Shown: positions 2,462-52,948 of the stretch, piece by piece
Layout: each line of letters begins with the position of its first letter
How positions within the stretch are numbered: the stretch's first letter is position 1
Assembly (NCBI GenBank): GCA_035541455.1
Contig: DATKNH010000116.1
Coordinates: 62,001-126,000 of the forward strand
Direction of reading: 5' to 3'
Origin: Syntrophorhabdales bacterium
GTDB taxonomy: Bacteria; Desulfobacterota; Syntrophorhabdia; Syntrophorhabdales; WCHB1-27
Length of the DNA: 64,000 bases
Made by a program: the position numbers and the translations under genes
Notes under the pieces: generated by a model
Databases searched by the model: none
What the model was told of the DNA's origin: nothing
What the model saw: the letters and a program-made list of their open reading frames with translations, nothing else

Positions 2462-2602
2462 TAAATCCTAATATCGAATATCTAAATCCTAAACAATCTC
2501 AAATATCAAATCTCCTAAACTGAACCCGGGAAGCTGGTATTGTGTCTTGAATTTTGGTCATTCGATATTGTTTAGGATTTCGACATTAGGATTTGGAATT
2601 TG
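2462..2602. repeat. AT-rich imperfect palindromic intergenic repeat, copy A
   Basis: The gap between the ferredoxin and DctM genes holds an imperfect inverted repeat of about 45 bases per arm. The best-conserved part is AATCCTAAACAAT at 2485-2497 and its reverse complement at 2567-2579, with flanking AAATCCTAAT-type repeats in both arms. A related element with AATTCCAAACAAT in both arms lies at 33620-33765. The transcript of the operon would fold here, so it may set relative expression of the transporter and the redox genes. Confidence 0.7.
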
Positions 2603-32037: not shown

Positions 32038-33609
32038 ATGTGGATGAATAGAGCCCTCTTTCTGCTGATTCTGCTGTTGATGGTCGGATGTGCTAAGGTA
32101 GGGCCGAACTATACGCGGCCTGAGACAGCCGTGTTGCCGAACTGGATAGAGGCCGGCGACAAACGTCTTACGAATGAGCCTGCAGATTATCGCTCGTGGT
32201 GGAAGGTATTCAATGATCCTGTGCTCGACCGGCTCATCGACACGGCGTACCGGCAGAACCTGCCTCTGAGGGTGGCCGGTATCAGAGTGCTCGAAGCCCG
32301 TGCGCAGCTCGGGATTGCCGTCGGTTCACTCTATCCCCAGACGCAGCAGGGTATCGGGTCGCTTCAGTACAATCGATTGAGTGAGCATTCCACGCTCGCC
32401 GCCTTCTCGAGCCAGCTCGAGAGCTACTGGCAGGATCAGATCGGTGTGACAGCCTCGTGGGAGATTGATTTCTGGGGAAGGTTCAGGAGGGCTATTGAAT
32501 CGGCTGACGCGACATTGCTTGCGAGCGTTGCCGATTACGACAATACGCTGGTGAGCCTTGTTTCGGATGTGGCAACCAACTATATCGCGATAAAGACGCT
32601 CGAAAAAAGGATCGACATAGCGAAGGAAAACAGTGTTATCCAACGTGAGAACCTTGAATTAGCCGAAGCCAAGTACACATACGGTACAGCCTCGCAGAGG
32701 GACGTTCAGCAAGCGAAGACGATCCTCATGAATACGGAGGCCGCTGTGCCCGCCCTCCAGATACAGCTCGAACAGACGAAGCATGCTGTCAGCACGTTGC
32801 TCGGCCTTCCGCCGGGGGGCCTCGCAGAGATCCTGGCTGGCTCTCCGGGGATACCCGTTCCTCCTCCGCAGGTAGCGCTGGGGATCCCTGCGGATCTACT
32901 GCGGCGGCGGCCCGACGTGCGCAGGGCAGAATACCAGGCGATGGCTCAAGCTTCACAGATCGGTGTGGCCAAGGCCGACCTCTATCCTGCTTTCTCACTG
33001 ACAGGAACGTTCAGTCTCATCTCAACGGACTTAGGCAACTCGACACTGGCCGACATGGTGAACTGGCACAGCAGAAATGTCGTTGCGGGTCCTGGGTTCA
33101 CATGGAATCTTTTTAACTACGGCCGGTTCACGAATAACGTACGGTTGCAGGACGCGAAGTTTCAGGAGCTTCTCACGGCGTACCAGAACGTTGTGCTTCA
33201 GGCGCAGCAGAATGTGGAAGACGGACTGGTAGGGTTTCTGAAATCGCAGGAGCGGGCGGAGATGCTTGCAGAGAGCACCGATGCCGCACGACAGGCGCTC
33301 GATCTCGCTGTTGAGCAATATCGCGGAGGGATCACCGACTTTACCACGGTGATAACCAGCGAGCAGTCTCTGCTGAGCGCACAGGATACGTTTGTGAGTA
33401 ACCTGGGAAGCGTTGCAAGTAATCTGGTGGCCATTTACCGGGGTCTCGGAGGCGGCTGGCAGATCAGGGAAGGGATGGATCTCGTGCCTCCTGAGATAAA
33501 AGAAGCGATGACGAAGCGCACGAACTGGGGAAATTTGCTGGAGCCGGCAGCCTACATGCCGCCTGCATCGGAAGAACCCCGATCCTTGATCCGAAGCCCG
33601 GACTGGTGA
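32038..33609 (+). CDS. RND efflux outer-membrane lipoprotein, NodT/OprM family
   Basis: A 523-residue TolC-like channel. The signal peptide ends in a lipobox (LMVGCAKVGPNYTRPE), and both tandem outer-membrane-factor repeats are present, including RPDVRRAEYQAMAQASQIGVAKADLYPAFSL-type motifs near residue 285. It forms the outer-membrane exit duct for the adaptor and pump encoded next. It is first gene of a three-gene operon. Confidence 0.93.
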   Translation: MWMNRALFLLILLLMVGCAKVGPNYTRPETAVLPNWIEAGDKRLTNEPADYRSWWKVFNDPVLDRLIDTAYRQNLPLRVAGIRVLEARAQLGIAVGSLYPQTQQGIGSLQYNRLSEHSTLAAFSSQLESYWQDQIGVTASWEIDFWGRFRRAIESADATLLASVADYDNTLVSLVSDVATNYIAIKTLEKRIDIAKENSVIQRENLELAEAKYTYGTASQRDVQQAKTILMNTEAAVPALQIQLEQTKHAVSTLLGLPPGGLAEILAGSPGIPVPPPQVALGIPADLLRRRPDVRRAEYQAMAQASQIGVAKADLYPAFSLTGTFSLISTDLGNSTLADMVNWHSRNVVAGPGFTWNLFNYGRFTNNVRLQDAKFQELLTAYQNVVLQAQQNVEDGLVGFLKSQERAEMLAESTDAARQALDLAVEQYRGGITDFTTVITSEQSLLSAQDTFVSNLGSVASNLVAIYRGLGGGWQIREGMDLVPPEIKEAMTKRTNWGNLLEPAAYMPPASEEPRSLIRSPDW

Positions 33610-33619
33610 GAAAGGAGCA

Positions 33620-33765
33620 AATTACAAATCACAATGTCTAAATTCCAAACAATGTCAAAATTCCAATATTCAAAACAGAGGCGTCCGTACTTGACGTCAT
33701 TAATATTTGGGCTGATTAGATATTGTTTGGAATTTGGTGCTTGGAATTTGAGATTTAGGCGAGGG
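33620..33765. repeat. AT-rich imperfect palindromic repeat, copy B, at the adaptor gene start
   Basis: AATTCCAAACAAT at 33641-33653 returns as its reverse complement at 33722-33734, with further AAATT-rich similarity in both arms. The element lies between the outer-membrane channel and adaptor genes. It is in frame with the adaptor, so a longer reading from 33634 would turn it into protein. Copy A is at 2462-2602. Confidence 0.65.
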
Positions 33766-46012: not shown

Positions 46013-46131
46013 ACCCCCTATAATGTATAGCTGTATCCTCTATTTGTATTGCAGTATATATGCCACCGCTGCCTTTTTCAAGGTCCGAATGAATGAATGT
46101 CGCGTGTAAATCGTGTTCACACCGAGACGTC

Positions 46132-46257
46132 ATACCAGTTCGGATTCAAGATGGAGACCGAGGCGGCAGCGAGGAGCTTGCCGGAGGCGTACTCTAGTAC
46201 GTCGAGGAAAAGCGACGCAGCGACAACGAAAGTATACGCTTGAATCCGAACTGGTAT
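46132..46257. repeat. Stop-codon-anchored hairpin element, copy 1
   Basis: A perfect 19-bp inverted repeat (46132-46150 and 46239-46257) encloses 88 bases. The inner core carries a second palindrome, GTACTCTAGTAC (46189-46200). The right arm shares one base with the stop codon of the leftward gene at 46257-46598. Read from that gene the element is stop, arm, CTCGACGTACT..AGTACGCC core, arm. The same order and orientation occur at 52819-52948 after selB. Confidence 0.75.
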
Positions 46258-46598
46258 CACTTTTCGAGAGGTTTGACTGCAAAGTTCAGCACAACAGCCT
46301 GCACAATATCAAAGAGGATTTCGTCCGAAGAGTCTACGTTCTGCCTTTGGAAATAGGAGGCCGCGGCGGAACGGATGTCGTTGAAGACCTTGAGACAATC
46401 CTGCTTCCAGAATGACCTGTCCTCAGCCATGTTTCTCACGGCATCTATGGTCCACTGAGCCGCTTCGGTGTGGGCGGGCGTGACAAACCCATCCATCACA
46501 TCGCACAATTGGTTGGCAATCTGGCCGGCAGAATACTCTTTGGCATAGTAGTCCACGAGTGCTTTGAATGTGCGGTGTTTTGAGGGATCGCTCAGCAT
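46257..46598 (-). CDS. Small protein of unknown function
   Basis: A 113-residue, mostly alpha-helical soluble protein with no signal peptide, no cysteine motif apart from two single Cys, and no family I recognise. AGGAG lies 7 bases upstream of the ATG at 46598. It precedes a hairpin element that begins at its stop codon and follows the B12-radical SAM gene by 36 bases, so the two may be cotranscribed. Confidence 0.7.
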   Translation of the reverse strand: MLSDPSKHRTFKALVDYYAKEYSAGQIANQLCDVMDGFVTPAHTEAAQWTIDAVRNMAEDRSFWKQDCLKVFNDIRSAAASYFQRQNVDSSDEILFDIVQAVVLNFAVKPLEK

Positions 46599-46634
46599 AG
46601 CATTGCTCCTCTCAGGGGCTGTGGGGGACCTGCA

Positions 46635-48143
46635 TCAATTCAGGAAGCCGATATTGTCACAACTGACTTTCCTGAAATGAAAACCGCAGATCGCCAGGCC
46701 GATAGCAAGGGGCATGAGACGGGGACGTCTGAAGAGTGACCAGATGAGAAGTTTCCAGTACTGATAGCGCTCCTTTTCGGCTATCCCGAGGACAAATACA
46801 GATCTCACGAAAGCGACGACGTGACTCAGACGAAAATGGAACAGCTTCTCCTGAGAGGGCGCGTAGTCAGCAAGGAATCCCCTGATGCGCGCATAATAGC
46901 ATTTCGGAGAATAGATCGTATCGAGGATCTTCTGGTATCCATTGACAAGCAGTTCACGGTTCATCTTAGGAACGAAATTCATCGAGAGATCCATATGATC
47001 GCCTGAAATATCATGAAGCAGACGACCCTCCTTCACAAGTCTGTCGTACAACTTTGTCCCGCGCGGCGCATTGAGCAAGCCCACCATTGCAGTGACGATG
47101 CCGCTCTCCTGGATGAACTTGGTGAGCCGGTCAAAAATCGATGGCGGATCATTGTCGAAGCCGAGAATAAACCCTGCCTGCACCTGCAACCCCGATTTCT
47201 GTATGGTTTTTACGCATGCCATGAGATTGCGGTTCTTGTTCTGGAACTTATTGCACTCGGCGAGACTGGCTTCGTGTGGCGTTTCTATACCGACAAAGAC
47301 GGTGTCAAACCCTGCGCGCACCATGAGCCGCATCAGCTGCTGGTCATCCGCGAGATTGATCGAGGCTTCCGTTGCAAACGCAAAGGGATAGCCCTTTTCT
47401 TTCATCCACGCGCACATGGCAGGCAGTACATCCTTCTTCAGCTTTGCTTTGTTCCCGATAAAGTTGTCATCAACAAAAAAGACGCTCCCCCTCCAGCCGG
47501 TCTCGTAGAGACGATCTAATTCCGCGATAATCTGATCCGTACCTTTGGTTCTCGGTTTCTGACCATACAGCACCGTAATGTTACAGAACTCACAGTTGAA
47601 GGGGCAGCCGCGAGAATACTGCACGTTCATGGAAGCATAGTTCTTGAGGTTGACCAGCTCCCAGCGCGGTATCGGCGTCTTTTCGATGTCAGCCCAGTCG
47701 CCCGATGTGTAGGTGCGCCGGGGTGAGCCTTTTTCAAGGTCTTCCAGGAACAATGGAAGGGTTATCTCGGCCTCATTGAGGACGAGGTGATCGACGTCGG
47801 GAAAATCCTCAGGCATTGCCGTAAAGAGAGGCCCGCCCGCAACAGTCTTAACTCCAAGGGCCTTACACCGGGAGATGACCTGCTGAACCGACTCTTTCTG
47901 AATACACATTGCGCTGATAAAGACATAATCTGCCCAGCGCAGGTCTTTGTCCTCCAGGAGTCTTGTCTGCATATCGATAAGTCTTGTTTCCCAGTTGCGC
48001 GGGAGCAAACCTGCTACCGTGAGTAAGCCGAGCGGCGGTGAGCTGGCCTTTTTTGAGATGAACCTCAGCGCGTATTTGTACGACCAGAATGTGTCGGGAT
48101 GCTCTGGATAAACCAGCAAAACTTTCTTGCCTGTCATTGCCAT
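46635..48143 (-). CDS. B12-binding domain radical SAM protein (DUF4070 type, HpnP-like)
   Basis: A 502-residue class B radical SAM enzyme. The N-terminal part (residues 1-150) is a cobalamin-binding-like fold, and CxxxCxxC at Cys180, Cys184 and Cys187 holds the 4Fe-4S cluster. The blocks SVFFVDDNFIGNK, TVFVGIETPHEASL and the C-terminal MVGLLNAPRGTKLYDRL region match the DUF4070 group, which includes the hopanoid C-2 methylase HpnP. No hopanoid genes are nearby, so methylation of another lipid or metabolite is equally possible. ATG 48143 has GGAGGA about 9 bases upstream; a longer frame from 48224 is unlikely. Confidence 0.85.
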   Translation of the reverse strand: MAMTGKKVLLVYPEHPDTFWSYKYALRFISKKASSPPLGLLTVAGLLPRNWETRLIDMQTRLLEDKDLRWADYVFISAMCIQKESVQQVISRCKALGVKTVAGGPLFTAMPEDFPDVDHLVLNEAEITLPLFLEDLEKGSPRRTYTSGDWADIEKTPIPRWELVNLKNYASMNVQYSRGCPFNCEFCNITVLYGQKPRTKGTDQIIAELDRLYETGWRGSVFFVDDNFIGNKAKLKKDVLPAMCAWMKEKGYPFAFATEASINLADDQQLMRLMVRAGFDTVFVGIETPHEASLAECNKFQNKNRNLMACVKTIQKSGLQVQAGFILGFDNDPPSIFDRLTKFIQESGIVTAMVGLLNAPRGTKLYDRLVKEGRLLHDISGDHMDLSMNFVPKMNRELLVNGYQKILDTIYSPKCYYARIRGFLADYAPSQEKLFHFRLSHVVAFVRSVFVLGIAEKERYQYWKLLIWSLFRRPRLMPLAIGLAICGFHFRKVSCDNIGFLN

Positions 48144-48328
48144 GCTCTGTCGTCCTCCAGCAAAACCGGTTTTCAGGCTGTTGTTATAAACCGTGCAGCC
48201 CGGAAAGTCCATTATCTTAACCAATGAGAGAGGAAACCAGAAGACGGGGCATTGGACTCGTCGGCTTCGAATAAGTATAGCAGCCTTCAGTCCCTATTTG
48301 CACCCTTTTTTTTAAGGCAGGCGGTGAC

Positions 48329-48490
48329 ATGCAAAAAATAACGTTCTTCTTGCTGCTGACATTCTGCTTGGTGATGGAAAGATGGAGCAAAGGCGGGAAT
48401 GGCGCCTCTGCTCCTCATTGTCAATCTACACCGGCAAAACGCCGGCTCTGTTATCAAGGAGAAGATGATGGAGCATACGGACCGGGTTGA
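48329..48490 (+). CDS. Possible small exported peptide
   Basis: A 53-codon frame in the gap between the radical SAM and lipoprotein genes. It starts with a signal-like segment (MQKITFFLLLTFCLV) and ends in a polar tail. The ribosome-binding site (GGCGG) is weak, and the 3' end overlaps the convergent lipoprotein gene by 37 bases. No homologue is known to me; it may be chance. The rest of the 310-base gap 48144-48453 shows only a T-run near 48306 and a short stem CCGGC/GCCGG at about 48433. Confidence 0.25.
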   Translation: MQKITFFLLLTFCLVMERWSKGGNGASAPHCQSTPAKRRLCYQGEDDGAYGPG

Positions 48491-49122
48491 GCCGGCGGCG
48501 GTGGACTAGGAGCGGGACCTGTGCCTGCCTGCACCTGTACCTTATGTTCGGGTACCCATTTACCATTTACGTATTGACCGGGAACGACTACCCATGTACC
48601 CCCTTGAGACTGACTGTGATATTCCGTTGGCGGTGGCGGTGGGGGTGCTGCGTAGGTTCGTCTCGCGGGTGCAGAACCGGGAATCTGATTACCCTTGGCA
48701 TACATGCATTGCTGATACGCAATATCGTATCGCCTCTGGAGTTGGTACTCAGAGTTCGCGCCGGCGTTACTGCCCATGGCGGTTCCGCCGAGGAGACCCG
48801 CTCCACCGCCGATGGCAGCGCCAGCACCCGCGGCGGCCGAGTTGCCTCCTGTGGCGGCGCCAATGGCTAACCCCATCGCAGCCCCGACAGCTGTTCCCAC
48901 TATTGCTCCTGTGGCCGTATTCTTGTTAGCGGTTTCGCTGGGTGATGCTCCGCCGATGGACTGCTGGGCCCACTGGCGGCACACGGCGTCATCCGCCATG
49001 AATACCTCGAAGGGTTTTCCCGGACCCGGAAGCACTGCGACGGTCGGACCTGTGGGCATGGTAGCGCATCCTGAGAGCATTGCGAGAGAACAGATAAGCA
49101 GCAAACCTCGTTTCCAGTTCAT
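48454..49122 (-). CDS. Glycine-zipper lipoprotein
   Basis: A 222-residue lipoprotein with signal peptide and lipobox (LAMLSGCATMP) when started at ATG 49122, which has AAGGAGG 9 bases upstream. The centre (residues about 68-120) is a glycine zipper, GAIVGTAVGAAMGLAIGAATGG followed by more Gly/Ala repeats, of the YMGG type that inserts in membranes. The C terminus is proline-rich and contains a WVVVPGQYVNGKWVPEH motif seen in outer-membrane-associated proteins. It overlaps the Gly/Tyr-rich protein gene by 4 bases. Confidence 0.8.
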   Translation of the reverse strand: MNWKRGLLLICSLAMLSGCATMPTGPTVAVLPGPGKPFEVFMADDAVCRQWAQQSIGGASPSETANKNTATGAIVGTAVGAAMGLAIGAATGGNSAAAGAGAAIGGGAGLLGGTAMGSNAGANSEYQLQRRYDIAYQQCMYAKGNQIPGSAPARRTYAAPPPPPPTEYHSQSQGGTWVVVPGQYVNGKWVPEHKVQVQAGTGPAPSPPPPAQPGPYAPSSSP

Positions 49123-49718
49123 CGTGTTGTATCCTCCTTTCCCGATTGTGGAGGCGGTGTAGGGATCACTTGCTGCCATCCACCCGGGCAACTGCCGACG
49201 TAAGGGTAATAACCTTGAGGGTTCTGACAGTAGTACCAATAGGTCGGCTGTGGTTCGCTCGGGGCGGGAAGTTGATTATCCGGATACGCCGAGTACGGAT
49301 AGGCGTAAGGATAAGAGTACGGATAGGAATAGTAGGGATAGCCGTAGTAGGGGTAACCCCATCCCCACCAGGGATAGCCGTACCAGCCATAGTATCCCCA
49401 CCACGGTCCGCCGCCATACCAGCCATAATAACCCCAGGGGCGGTAGCCATACCATCCGTAAGGGCGATAATAGCCGCCATACCAGCCATACCCCCGGTAC
49501 CCGTAGTGGCCGCCGCCGTAATAGCCTCCGTGGTAGGCTCCCCCGTAATAGGCGCCTCCACGATACGAACCACCGGAATATCCCCCGTGGTATCCGCCTC
49601 CGGAATAGCCACCGGCATGACCTCCCCCGCCGTGTCCACCACCGGCAGCGTTAGCCACTCCTGAAAAAAGCAGAATCGACAAAAAAATCGCCGATAAAAC
49701 ACAAGCATTAAGCTTCAT
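49119..49718 (-). CDS. Exported glycine/tyrosine-rich low-complexity protein
   Basis: A 199-residue protein with a signal peptide (CVLSAIFLSILLFSGVANA). The mature region begins with GGGH and GGY repeats and passes into WYGGYYRPYG-like and YPYSYPYAYP-like repeats, so Gly, Tyr, Trp and Pro make up most of it. It ends in a short normal segment with two Cys (WYYCQNPQGYYPYVGSCPGGW), a motif found at the C terminus of many such envelope proteins. The ATG at 49718 is preferred to one at 49829. It is expressed with the glycine-zipper lipoprotein. Its role is unknown; it is probably surface or envelope associated. Confidence 0.8.
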   Translation of the reverse strand: MKLNACVLSAIFLSILLFSGVANAAGGGHGGGGHAGGYSGGGYHGGYSGGSYRGGAYYGGAYHGGYYGGGHYGYRGYGWYGGYYRPYGWYGYRPWGYYGWYGGGPWWGYYGWYGYPWWGWGYPYYGYPYYSYPYSYPYAYPYSAYPDNQLPAPSEPQPTYWYYCQNPQGYYPYVGSCPGGWQQVIPTPPPQSGKEDTTR

Positions 49719-50103
49719 CTGGTTATCGTTCCTTCTCTTCAAAGGATAAACCCCAGGGATGTGCATGTCAACAGCACTATCCCGCAAGAAAACCCTTGAT
49801 ACCCATCGACAACCATCAGCACAAACCATGCCAGATGCACTGCCCTGGTTGCAGGTGAGTTCTGTCTGTCATTCTCTTAAATTTCGCCTGTTTGGGACAT
49901 GAGCAGCCGATGCGGGAGTCGCACGGATTCCGGCTGTAGCGACATTACTGTCGAACAAGTATTTATCATTTCGACATTTATGGCATGGTGTGGCGAGAAG
50001 CGCTCACATCGTTGTGGTAACTTCTGCTTTTATGGCCATTGTTTTTCAGCCGCGTCGGCGTTAGAGTATGACGAAAATAGAAATGGCAAAAGGAGGTTCC
50101 CTC
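49719..50103. other. Intergenic region without recognised gene
   Basis: These 385 bases separate the leftward Gly/Tyr-rich gene from the rightward FKBP gene and must hold both promoters. I see no convincing -35/-10 pair, repeat or RNA gene. The AAAGGAGG at 50090-50097 is the ribosome-binding site of the FKBP gene. Confidence 0.5.
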
Positions 50104-50799
50104 ATGAAATTGTGCACAGGTGCCCTCGTAGTTATGACGACCCTGCTGCTGGCCGGGATTGCCTGCGGCGCTGACGAGCAAATGCTGAGGACGGAAAAGG
50201 AAAAGACGAGCTATGCGATAGGCGCGCAGACAGGCGCCGATATGCGCCATTTCGGCGTGGATGTTGATCCCGACCTTGTGGCGAGGGGCTTCCGGGATGC
50301 CTATTCAGGCAGGCAGCTTCTTCTCAACGACCAGCAGATGTCGGAAACAATCGGCAATATCAGCAGAACGATCTCTGCAAGGGGCAACGAGATGATGAAG
50401 CAGGATGCGGAGAAGAACAAAAAAGAAGGTGAGGCGTTTCTCGCCCAGAACATGCGGAAGGAAGGAGTGAAAACCTTGTCTGACGGTTTGCAATACAAGG
50501 TGCTCAGGGAGGGCACTGGTGCCGCCCCCAGAGTGACGGATACTGCTACGGTGAATTATCGTGGTACCTTTATCGATGGCACCGAGTTTGACAGCTCGTA
50601 TCGCAGAGGACAACCATTTACGTTCCAGGTGAATAAGATGATAAAGGGATGGGTTGAGGCTTTGCCAATGATGAGGGTCGGCTCAAAATGGCAGCTCTTC
50701 ATACCGCCCCAGCTTGCTTACGGCGAACAGGGAGCGCCCCCGGCGATAGGTCCAAACGCCACACTCATTTACGAAGTGGAGCTGCTTTCAATCAAATAG
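50104..50799 (+). CDS. FKBP-type peptidyl-prolyl cis-trans isomerase (Mip/FkpA-like)
   Basis: A 231-residue protein with a signal peptide (GALVVMTTLLLAGIACG), an N-terminal helical dimerisation domain (residues about 35-120) and a C-terminal FKBP domain with VNYRGTFIDGTEFDSSY and IPPQLAYGEQG. It catalyses proline isomerisation during folding of envelope proteins in the periplasm. ATG 50104 has AAAGGAGG 6 bases upstream. Confidence 0.93.
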   Translation: MKLCTGALVVMTTLLLAGIACGADEQMLRTEKEKTSYAIGAQTGADMRHFGVDVDPDLVARGFRDAYSGRQLLLNDQQMSETIGNISRTISARGNEMMKQDAEKNKKEGEAFLAQNMRKEGVKTLSDGLQYKVLREGTGAAPRVTDTATVNYRGTFIDGTEFDSSYRRGQPFTFQVNKMIKGWVEALPMMRVGSKWQLFIPPQLAYGEQGAPPAIGPNATLIYEVELLSIK

Positions 50800-50801
50800 A
50801 A

Positions 50802-50905
50802 GGCTGGACAGCTAGTCGGCTAGCAAGCCAAGAAGCTAGTCAGCTAGTCAGCTTTCAGGCTTGCCAGCCTGTGAACCCCTTAGCTTGCTAGCTTGCCGGC
50901 TAACC
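50802..50905. repeat. GCTAG-type short repeats upstream of selB
   Basis: The 123-base gap between the FKBP and selB genes is largely made of AGCTAGTC and GCTTGCTAGC units in both orientations (for example AGCTAGTCAGCTAGTCAGCT near 50833 and its inverted relatives near 50884), with a stem CAGGCTTGCCAGCCTG at about 50856. These would fold strongly in RNA. No promoter was identified. Confidence 0.6.
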
Positions 50906-50922
50906 AGTATACTATATCCTCC

Positions 50923-52821
50923 ATGAAGCAGATTGTTATCGGCACCGCAGGCCACATAGACCACGGGAAAACAGCGCTGGTCAAAGCACTCACCGGCATT
51001 GACTGTGACAGGCTCAAAGAAGAAAAAGAACGGGGCATAACCATCGAACTCGGGTTTGCCCACTACCGTTTCGGGGATGATCTCCTCGCAGGCATTGTCG
51101 ATGTCCCAGGGCACGAGCGCTTTGTCAAGCACATGGTAGCGGGCGCGTGGGGTATCGACATGGTACTCTTTGTAGTCGCGGCCGATGAATCGGTGATGCC
51201 GCAGACGAGGGAGCATCTCGATATCTGTGAACTGCTGGGCATCAAGAGAGGCATTGTCGCCATCACCAAAAAAGACCTCGTGGAGCCTGACATGGTGGAG
51301 CTGGTCAAGGAGGAGATAACCGATCTCGTCAAAGGTCGATTTCTCGAAGGCGCGCCGATCGTAGCTGTTTCATCGACCACGGGTGAAAACATCGACCTCC
51401 TCAAAGAACAGATCCGAAAAGTAGCTGATGAAATCCAGGAGCGCTCCAAAGCCGGCATCTTCAGATTGCCTGTTGACCGGGTCTTTACGATCAAGGGTTT
51501 CGGCACCATCATCACCGGCACCTGTATATCCGGCCAGGTGCATGTGGGTGAGGAGGTAGAAATCTACCCGACGGGAAGAAGGGCGAGAATAAGAAACCTG
51601 CAGGCCTACCATGAAGATGCGAGCGAGGCATCTGCCGGGCAGCGGGTGGCGCTTAACTTACAGGGGGTGGAGAAGCAGGAGATTGAGCGGGGAACGCTCA
51701 TCGGCAGGCCGGAAAGCCTGATGCTGACCAGTCGCATTGACGCAACATTCCGCTATCTCAAGCTCCCGTTCAAAGGTATAAAGAACGGGAGCATTCTTCG
51801 TTTCCATGTCGCGACGACACAAGTGGAAGCCCGGCTTATCCTTCTCGACCGAAAGAGTATAGAGCCCGGAGAGGAGGTATTCGCGCAGTTCATATTCATG
51901 GAACCGGTAGTTTTGCTGCCAGGAGACCGATTCATCCTGCGGGGATCGTATAGCGTGCAGACGCTCGGCGGAGGCACTGTTCTTGACATCATGCCCAGGA
52001 GACACGCTAGAAAGACAGGCGAGCTTGAAAGGACTCACGCTCTGCTCCGCGAAAGCAGTCTCGTCGAACGGGGCGAGTACCATATTCTGAAGGGAGCTTA
52101 CGAAGGTATACGCAAAGAGACACTGGCCGTGCTGCTGGGGACCGAGGAAAAGGCCATTGAAAAAGCGATTGCCGAATTGGCCCAGAACCGGAAGGCAAGC
52201 CTGATCGGTAGAACGCTCGTCCACTCGACGTATTTCTCAGATTACAAAACCAGGCTGCAAGCTCTCCTTGCGGACTTTTACGCGAAGAACCCTCTCAAGG
52301 TCGGCATCTCAAAAGAAGAACTTCGGACCAGGCTGCCCAAGGTTGAATCTCACGTATTCCAGGTTGCCCTTGAGGAGCTCAGCAAAGCGGGTCAGCTGGA
52401 GCTGGAGAAGGACAAGGTGCTCTTGAAGGGGGTAACCCGGACGGCTGACAAGTCAGTCCAACAGGGAGAGGAACAGATCCTGAAAAAACTTCAGAGGTCT
52501 GGGCTGACTCCTCCGATCTTGGGCGAATTGGCAGCCGATCTGAATCTGAAGGAATCCAATCTTCGCGACATGCTCGGAAAACTTGCGCACGAAGGCAAAG
52601 TGGCAAGGATCAAGGGTGACATGTACTTTGATGCGGACGTGATTGAATCGCTGAAAAAGAAGGTAATTGATCATCTGGAGAAGCACAAGGAGATGATGCC
52701 TTCTGATTTCAAGAATATGACGGGTGTTTCCAGAAAGTATATGATTCCGCTGCTTGAGTACTTTGACGAAACAAGGCTGACGATACGCAGCGGCGATAAA
52801 CGCCTGCTCCGCACCGCGTAA
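50923..52821 (+). CDS. selB: Selenocysteine-specific elongation factor SelB
   Basis: A 632-residue translational GTPase that delivers Sec-tRNA to UGA codons at SECIS elements. The GTPase motifs are GHIDHGKT (10-17), DVPGH (60-64) and TKKD (115-118). Domains II and III follow, and the C-terminal third is made of winged helices that bind the SECIS stem. ATG 50923 gives the family's usual start ([17 protein letters not shown]). Neither selA, selC nor a clear selenoprotein gene is seen in this window. The stop codon TAA is the first three bases of a hairpin element. Confidence 0.94.
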
Positions 52822-52948
52822 TTTCGGGTTGAATTTCGCGCCTATCTTCGTTGCCCTTCGCCGGCATCTCGCTCGACGTACTCCAGTACGCCTTCGCTCG
52901 TGTCAGCTCGGAGCGCCTCGATATCCATCGAAATTCAACCCGAAATTA
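52819..52948. repeat. Stop-codon-anchored hairpin element, copy 2
   Basis: A perfect 20-bp inverted repeat (52819-52838 and 52929-52948) whose left arm begins with the selB stop codon. The core holds CTCGACGTACTCCAGTACGCC (52873-52892 region). Copy 1 at 46132-46257 has the same order and orientation relative to its gene. The arms of the two copies share TTCGG.TT.AA, and where they differ both sides of the stem differ together. Confidence 0.75.

Follow-up and report, generated by a model that had tools for sequence, protein, structure and literature searches.

The 64,000-nucleotide stretch of Syntrophorhabdales DNA analysed here (hereafter, the window) carries two hairpin elements, one directly behind a gene encoding a 113-aa protein and the other directly behind selB. 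We regard it as probable (about 80%) that both belong to a single family of non-coding, non-autonomous DNA transposons resembling miniature inverted-repeat transposable elements (MITEs), which insert at 5'-TNA-3' with duplication of 3 bp and restore the stop codon that they enter. Each element forms a single long imperfect hairpin and would be inserted at TNA by a transposase that duplicates 3 bp; within TAA or TGA the duplication would give the stop back and leave the host gene untouched, and such insertions would be tolerated and accumulate, while most others would be purged. The family is real, abundant and previously mobile, and its stop anchoring has a sound basic explanation. Among the readings offered in an earlier note, made from the sequence alone, that of a transposable element targeting gene ends is the one that survives, with TAA and TGA both qualifying as sites for TNA insertion with a 3-bp duplication.

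The insertion rule was read from the triplets flanking TACC...GGTA in 60 copies of G001, the sole genome of the same genus compared with the host genome (G000, 3.9 Mb). The left triplet was TNA in 42/60 copies and the right one in 39/60, compared with 5.1% for TNA across these loci, and the two triplets were identical in 22/60 (shuffled partners, mean 8.3 and maximum 15). Where both triplets were TNA, they formed 22 direct, 3 palindromic and 9 other pairs. This enrichment, combined with the identical direct triplets, therefore indicates a 3-bp target duplication at TNA. Among 30 further loci, retrieved solely by their inner arm sequence, 24 had TNA as the left triplet. Furthermore, the site of one copy in G026 (L196) was empty in the congeners G027, G018, G021 and G016 (84-88% identity, stop conserved); these empty sites show that insertion occurred behind a native stop. 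Terminal inverted repeats, non-coding content, target-site duplication, and filled and empty sites, which are among the features by which MITEs are recognised, were thus found. A stop-like trinucleotide target independent of reading frame had first been doubted, given unanchored host copies lacking a left TRR, a doubt that the TNA duplication in G001 resolved.

The coordinates, arms and shared core given in the earlier note for the two window elements were borne out, with bounds refined to 46133-46256 and 52822-52945. We redefined the element proper as TACC...GGTA in copy 1 and TTTC...GAAA in copy 2; the stop codon on which the proximal arm had been said to begin does adjoin the element, but it is the flanking target triplet and lies outside it. 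On its gene's strand, copy 1 reads AG-TGA-TACC...GGTA-TGA-CG. Copy 2, flanked by TAA and TTA, is an older insertion whose identical duplication is no longer visible. Complementarity between the arms reached 89% over 28 nt in copy 1 (46123-46150/46239-46266; perfect over the inner 20) and 100% over 20 nt in copy 2 (52819-52838/52929-52948). These two were the only palindromes with a score of at least 12 starting at any of the 56 gene ends in the window, compared with 1/300 random positions, and both cores matched CGACGTACTNNAGTACG exactly, with no third occurrence in the window. The selB gene is complete to its native end, the SelB-wing_3 profile being matched in full (1-47/47) and reaching residue 639 of 642, and the SelB C-terminus is equally long in G003, a genome without elements. 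The 113-aa protein had no match in Pfam/NCBIfam.

To follow the family beyond the window, a covariance model was built from 15 copies; at most 150 candidates were scored per genome, and large counts are consequently lower bounds. The host genome yielded 82 matches at E<=0.001, and we put its number of copies at about 70-80. At E<=0.1, G001 gave at least 149 matches, G026 gave 12, G002 gave 11 and G022 gave 7, whereas G003 had none. A pattern search with the core located 13 places in the host genome, 12 of them element-like and one within a gene. In the alignment, the host copies have a common architecture: 17-20 bp of outer arm, then an inner stem, an internal loop that is conserved (TTCGTTG facing CGCCTC), a stem that varies and, at the apex, the hairpin GACGTACTNNAGTACGCC, in which a single A.C mismatch is fixed. 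Across the family, copies with arms of 17-20 bp range from 122 to 308 bp and differ in inner content, and the core, CTCGACGTACTNNAGTACGCC, is nearly invariant. Four G001 copies (L093, L097, L101, L125) contain additional nested hairpins (CCGGGTACCCACGTAAGTGGGTG, CCCGGGGTACCCGGCCGAAGGCTGGGTC) within the stem. Among the G002 matches, L173, L178, L183, L193 and L198 represent other palindromic families (CGGCATGTTCGGAATCGCGATC; CGGCCGGGGCGCTTTTTGCGC), located away from stops. Weak model matches in the host (L243, L249, L250, L252, L260) delineate a second hairpin family with the inner motif AAAGTCC...GGAGCTTT, in which 3/5 copies start within 3 nt of a stop and the arms are variable and complementary.

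Both the stop anchoring and the orientation bias seen in the window hold genome-wide. Counting as anchored any host copy whose left end lay no more than 4 nt from the in-frame stop closing a same-strand open reading frame of at least 90 codons (reading frames were called crudely from stop to stop, and short genes and contig ends are missed), 50/71 copies were anchored in sense orientation, 27 of them at exactly -1, and in only 4/71 was it the right end that lay at a stop, that of a convergent reading frame. In G001, 26 of the 60 copies adjoined a stop on the left and 9 on the right (35/60 for both ends), and a further 9 adjoined the Shine-Dalgarno sequence of a divergent gene on the left, with none on the right; the left end of several unanchored host copies likewise adjoins a divergent Shine-Dalgarno. 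Both TAA and TGA fit TNA, and duplication of the triplet puts the stop back. Hundreds of gene ends would in this way be habitable without cost, the element entering the stop codon and the target duplication repairing it. Two other routes to the same position were considered. A one-sided deletion ratchet running up to the stop is not supported, since two young copies lie exactly at the boundary where the empty sites of congeners have short spacers, and insertion into pre-existing terminator hairpins, with arms derived from the target, was rejected because recently amplified copies share arms at different genes.

Several observations weigh against this explanation or show where it falls short. 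Identical triplets in host copies were no commoner than chance (3/44), a scarcity that we attribute to age, the duplications having decayed; the G001 copies look younger. A TNA target alone does not yield the observed stop share: free TAA/TGA stops account for only 26 of the window's 278 intergenic TNA sites (9.4%), whereas 70% of host copies and 58% of G001 copies (both ends) lie at stops, a 6-7-fold excess. Nor does a symmetric TNA site predict any preference for sense orientation, which was favoured 50:4 in the host and 26:9 in G001. Moreover, 12/50 anchored host copies adjoin TAG, which is not TNA and calls for later mutation or a second rule. Finally, no long element, transposase-length interior or copy with a transposase gene was present among 30 loci of G001 and G026 (incomplete genomes, part of whose matches were read), and no search was aimed at IS1031-type transposases.

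The excess at stops and the orientation bias therefore require selection or additional targeting beyond the choice of target. Purging of insertions elsewhere would be the simplest cause, and intergenic DNA indeed amounts to only 6.9% of the window, so that selection would produce a pattern similar to that of active targeting. Active targeting of stops or gene boundaries, through transcription, translation or an extended recognition site, would account for the excess itself, for the asymmetry between the left and right ends in G001, and for the young TTCATTC subfamily, in which the left triplet was TGA/TAA in 22/30 copies and TCA/TTA in 2. We consider it unlikely, albeit the strongest competitor on this point, since several young G026 copies lie away from any stop or at a distance of 4-5 nt from one, and non-stop copies in G001 freely use TTA.

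The arms of the two window copies had been described as differing in such a way that each change is matched on the opposite arm, and this held across the family, the arms not being identical from copy to copy. In the 15-sequence alignment 93.7% of cells were paired and 65 had changed on both sides, compared with 18.9 in shuffles and at most 9 in sliding controls. Over positions 1-11 in G001, complementarity reached 613/660 (shuffle mean 457, maximum 480), with 111 cells altered on both sides and 44 on a single side; changed cells are non-independent events, as subfamilies inherit changes. Independent arm-change events are provided by the same genes in two species: the element is present in the host as well as in G001 at orthologous selB, at pyrC and at a third gene (L002/L107), with arms that are different yet matched. 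The selB arm, for instance, is TTTCGGGTTGAATTTCG in the host and TGCCGGGTTAAATTT in G001, each paired with its own complement. A second selB-like 3' end on contig C102 of the host assembly (L228), possibly from a co-binned strain, bears an element with mismatched arms (left ATGCCGGGTTGAATTT, right AAATTTAACCCGAAGT) that appears transitional between the arm states of the host and of G001.

Selection on a folded sense transcript was among the explanations initially proposed, in the form of a 3'-end regulatory RNA or terminator-like structure behind stops. The position and sense orientation of the copies agree with it, as do the RNA folding of both window copies far below shuffles (z -7.3 and -5.6) and the vertical persistence with matched arms behind selB, pyrC and the third gene. 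In addition, the gene following an anchored copy was convergent in 24/44 cases, against a window baseline of 16/55, and anchored copies preceding co-directional genes left a median gap of 137 bp, compared with 33 bp overall; these tendencies fit tolerance as well as a function at the ends of transcripts. However, single mismatches in the host arms were G.T in 16 and A.C in 18 of 732 pairs, and those in G001 were G.T in 9 and A.C in 26 (13 of the 26 forming one inherited mismatch column). Under selection for RNA pairing, G.U would be expected to outnumber A.C by far; as G.T is no commoner than A.C, maintenance of arm pairing by RNA folding is not supported. Pairing on the bottom strand, which the G001 counts might have suggested, was discarded, 13 of the 26 A.C mismatches coming from that one column. 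Furthermore, copies adjoining the Shine-Dalgarno of a divergent gene carry the other strand, neither window element is followed by a T-run such as stands behind the short GC-rich hairpin of an intrinsic terminator, no Rfam family matched, and target duplications and empty sites reveal insertion. Selection on an RNA is thus an improbable origin of the family, even if some copies may be used at transcript ends.

More likely, arm pairing is kept at the DNA level. Matched drift could proceed if, within the hairpin, one arm served as the template for the other, and the hairpin-templated correction that had also been proposed is compatible with the paired changes and with G.T and A.C being equally rare. 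Conserved internal mismatches stay uncorrected, and correction, if this is the process, is therefore confined to the arms. Matched arm changes at one locus in two species constitute a natural record of transposon ends changing together and are relevant to the way in which non-autonomous elements adjust to a new transposase.

The core extends much further than the ends. Although the exact core was present in only 4/99 relatives, and is thus missing from most, a 22-base version occurred in 73 stretches of other bacterial genomes, from Planctomycetota, Desulfobacterota, Gammaproteobacteria, Clostridia, Myxococcales, Acidobacteriota, Nitrospirota, Thermoleophilia, Helicobacteraceae and one Bifidobacterium. 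The distant stretches that were read mostly had paired arms, many starting at a stop codon, and their ends were unrelated to those described here, for example TAGAAGTCATCCC and TAGAAGTC in Planctomycetota and TAGTTTCC in Desulfatibia. The Bifidobacterium core was found in only 1/112 genomes of that genus and hence could not serve as a source of empty sites. Many related elements stand at contig ends (L015, L025, L035, L040, L073, L076 and others), which suggests that short-read assemblies break at these repeats and undercount the copies. A literature search on the core string and on stop-codon MITEs retrieved nothing specific. A cross-phylum core without an Rfam entry points to an unrecognised superfamily with a conserved putative binding partner. 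It is conceivable, though we would not bet on it, that the core hairpin is a selfish module independent of any one transposase, whose arms drift by hairpin-templated copying so that its ends change and different transposases are ridden, with an active preference for sense stops. If true, this would explain one core with unrelated ends in Planctomycetota, Desulfobacterota, Gammaproteobacteria, Clostridia and Actinobacteria. What stays interesting about the family is its excess at stops, together with its polarity, the matched arms and a core shared across phyla.

With respect to the mobiliser of the MITE-like family, an IS1031-type transposase (IS5 family) would suit, because TNA duplication is the published rule for that group; we take this as a lead rather than as proof. 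A reverse transcriptase partner, and with it a retroelement, was rejected, the enzyme being absent from the carriers G022 (100% complete) and G026 (96%).

Table 1. Parts of the two elements and their host genes, in window coordinates.
Feature	Position	Strand	Basis
Element copy 1 (124 bp, TACC...GGTA)	46133-46256	-	sequence; covariance model R1, 125.5 bits at 46132-46257
Target triplet of copy 1, upstream (TGA, also stop of the 113-aa gene)	46257-46259	-	sequence
Target triplet of copy 1, duplicated (TGA on minus strand)	46130-46132	-	sequence; TNA duplication
Distal arm of copy 1	46133-46150	.	perfect complement of 46239-46256
Proximal (stop-side) arm of copy 1	46239-46256	.	complement of distal arm
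Conserved core hairpin of copy 1, CGACGTACTAGAGTACG	46188-46204	-	core match
Host gene of copy 1, 113 aa, stop intact	46257-46598	-	
Element copy 2 (124 bp, TTTC...GAAA)	52822-52945	+	sequence; covariance model R1, 108.1 bits at 52821-52946
Target triplet of copy 2 (TAA, selB stop)	52819-52821	+	sequence
Far-side triplet of copy 2 (TTA, a TNA, one base off TAA)	52946-52948	+	sequence
Proximal arm of copy 2	52822-52838	.	complementarity
Distal arm of copy 2	52929-52945	.	complementarity
Conserved core hairpin of copy 2, CGACGTACTCCAGTACG	52874-52890	+	core match
Host gene of copy 2, selB	50893-52821	+	profile match

Two further, A+T-rich imperfect inverted repeats were observed in the window (2463-2601 and 33619-33756; arms 76% complementary, AAATCCTAA...), each starting about 10 nt past a gene stop (a minus-strand stop at 2612 and a plus-strand stop at 33609, respectively). 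A similar repeat lies behind the ortholog of the L186 gene in G018 (L278).

Compared with known systems, the elements are closest to MITEs. MITEAba12, of 111-114 bp, generates 9-bp duplications that are visible in about 40% of copies (PMC6382973). Like it, the elements are short and non-coding, lack a transposase, are bounded by terminal inverted repeats, show target duplications and are present in tens of copies; unlike it, a single hairpin spans the whole element, the arms vary from copy to copy in matched pairs, conservation is higher in the centre than at the ends, and most copies sit in stop codons. The IS1031 group of the IS5 family duplicates exclusively 3 bp at 5'-TNA-3', with one example at TGA (PMC12016507), and thus shares target and duplication length with our elements, whereas the ends of ISLrh, the one published example compared, are GAACCTGTCTAGTATCT rather than TACCRRTTYGC.

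Repetitive extragenic palindromic (REP) sequences and REPINs, which are hairpin-forming inverted doublets (PMC3116915), are likewise abundant extragenic palindromes with internal polarity, often near gene ends, but they are built of 20-40 bp units, whereas our elements measure about 124 bp, with 17-20 bp arms and a 3-bp duplication. Mobilisation by a Y1 (RAYT) transposase, which the many extragenic, hairpin-forming copies and the polarity inside the palindrome might suggest, is very improbable: Y1_Tnp was not found in the host genome and was absent in 7/22 further carriers, the core lay within about 1.5 kb at 0/30 Y1 loci, and single-strand Y1 transposition does not fit a 3-bp TNA duplication. 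Integron attC sites, which are placed behind stop codons, also combine paired arms of varying sequence with fixed unpaired features, but an attC-like single-strand recombination site is a scarcely credible reading of the elements, as no integron integrase scored above the cut-off in the host, G001, G022 or G026 and one did so in G003, which lacks the elements. In contrast to attC sites, our elements have a conserved centre, variable outer arms and a target duplication, and they occur as single scattered sites behind genes that, where looked at, are housekeeping genes rather than arrayed cassettes.

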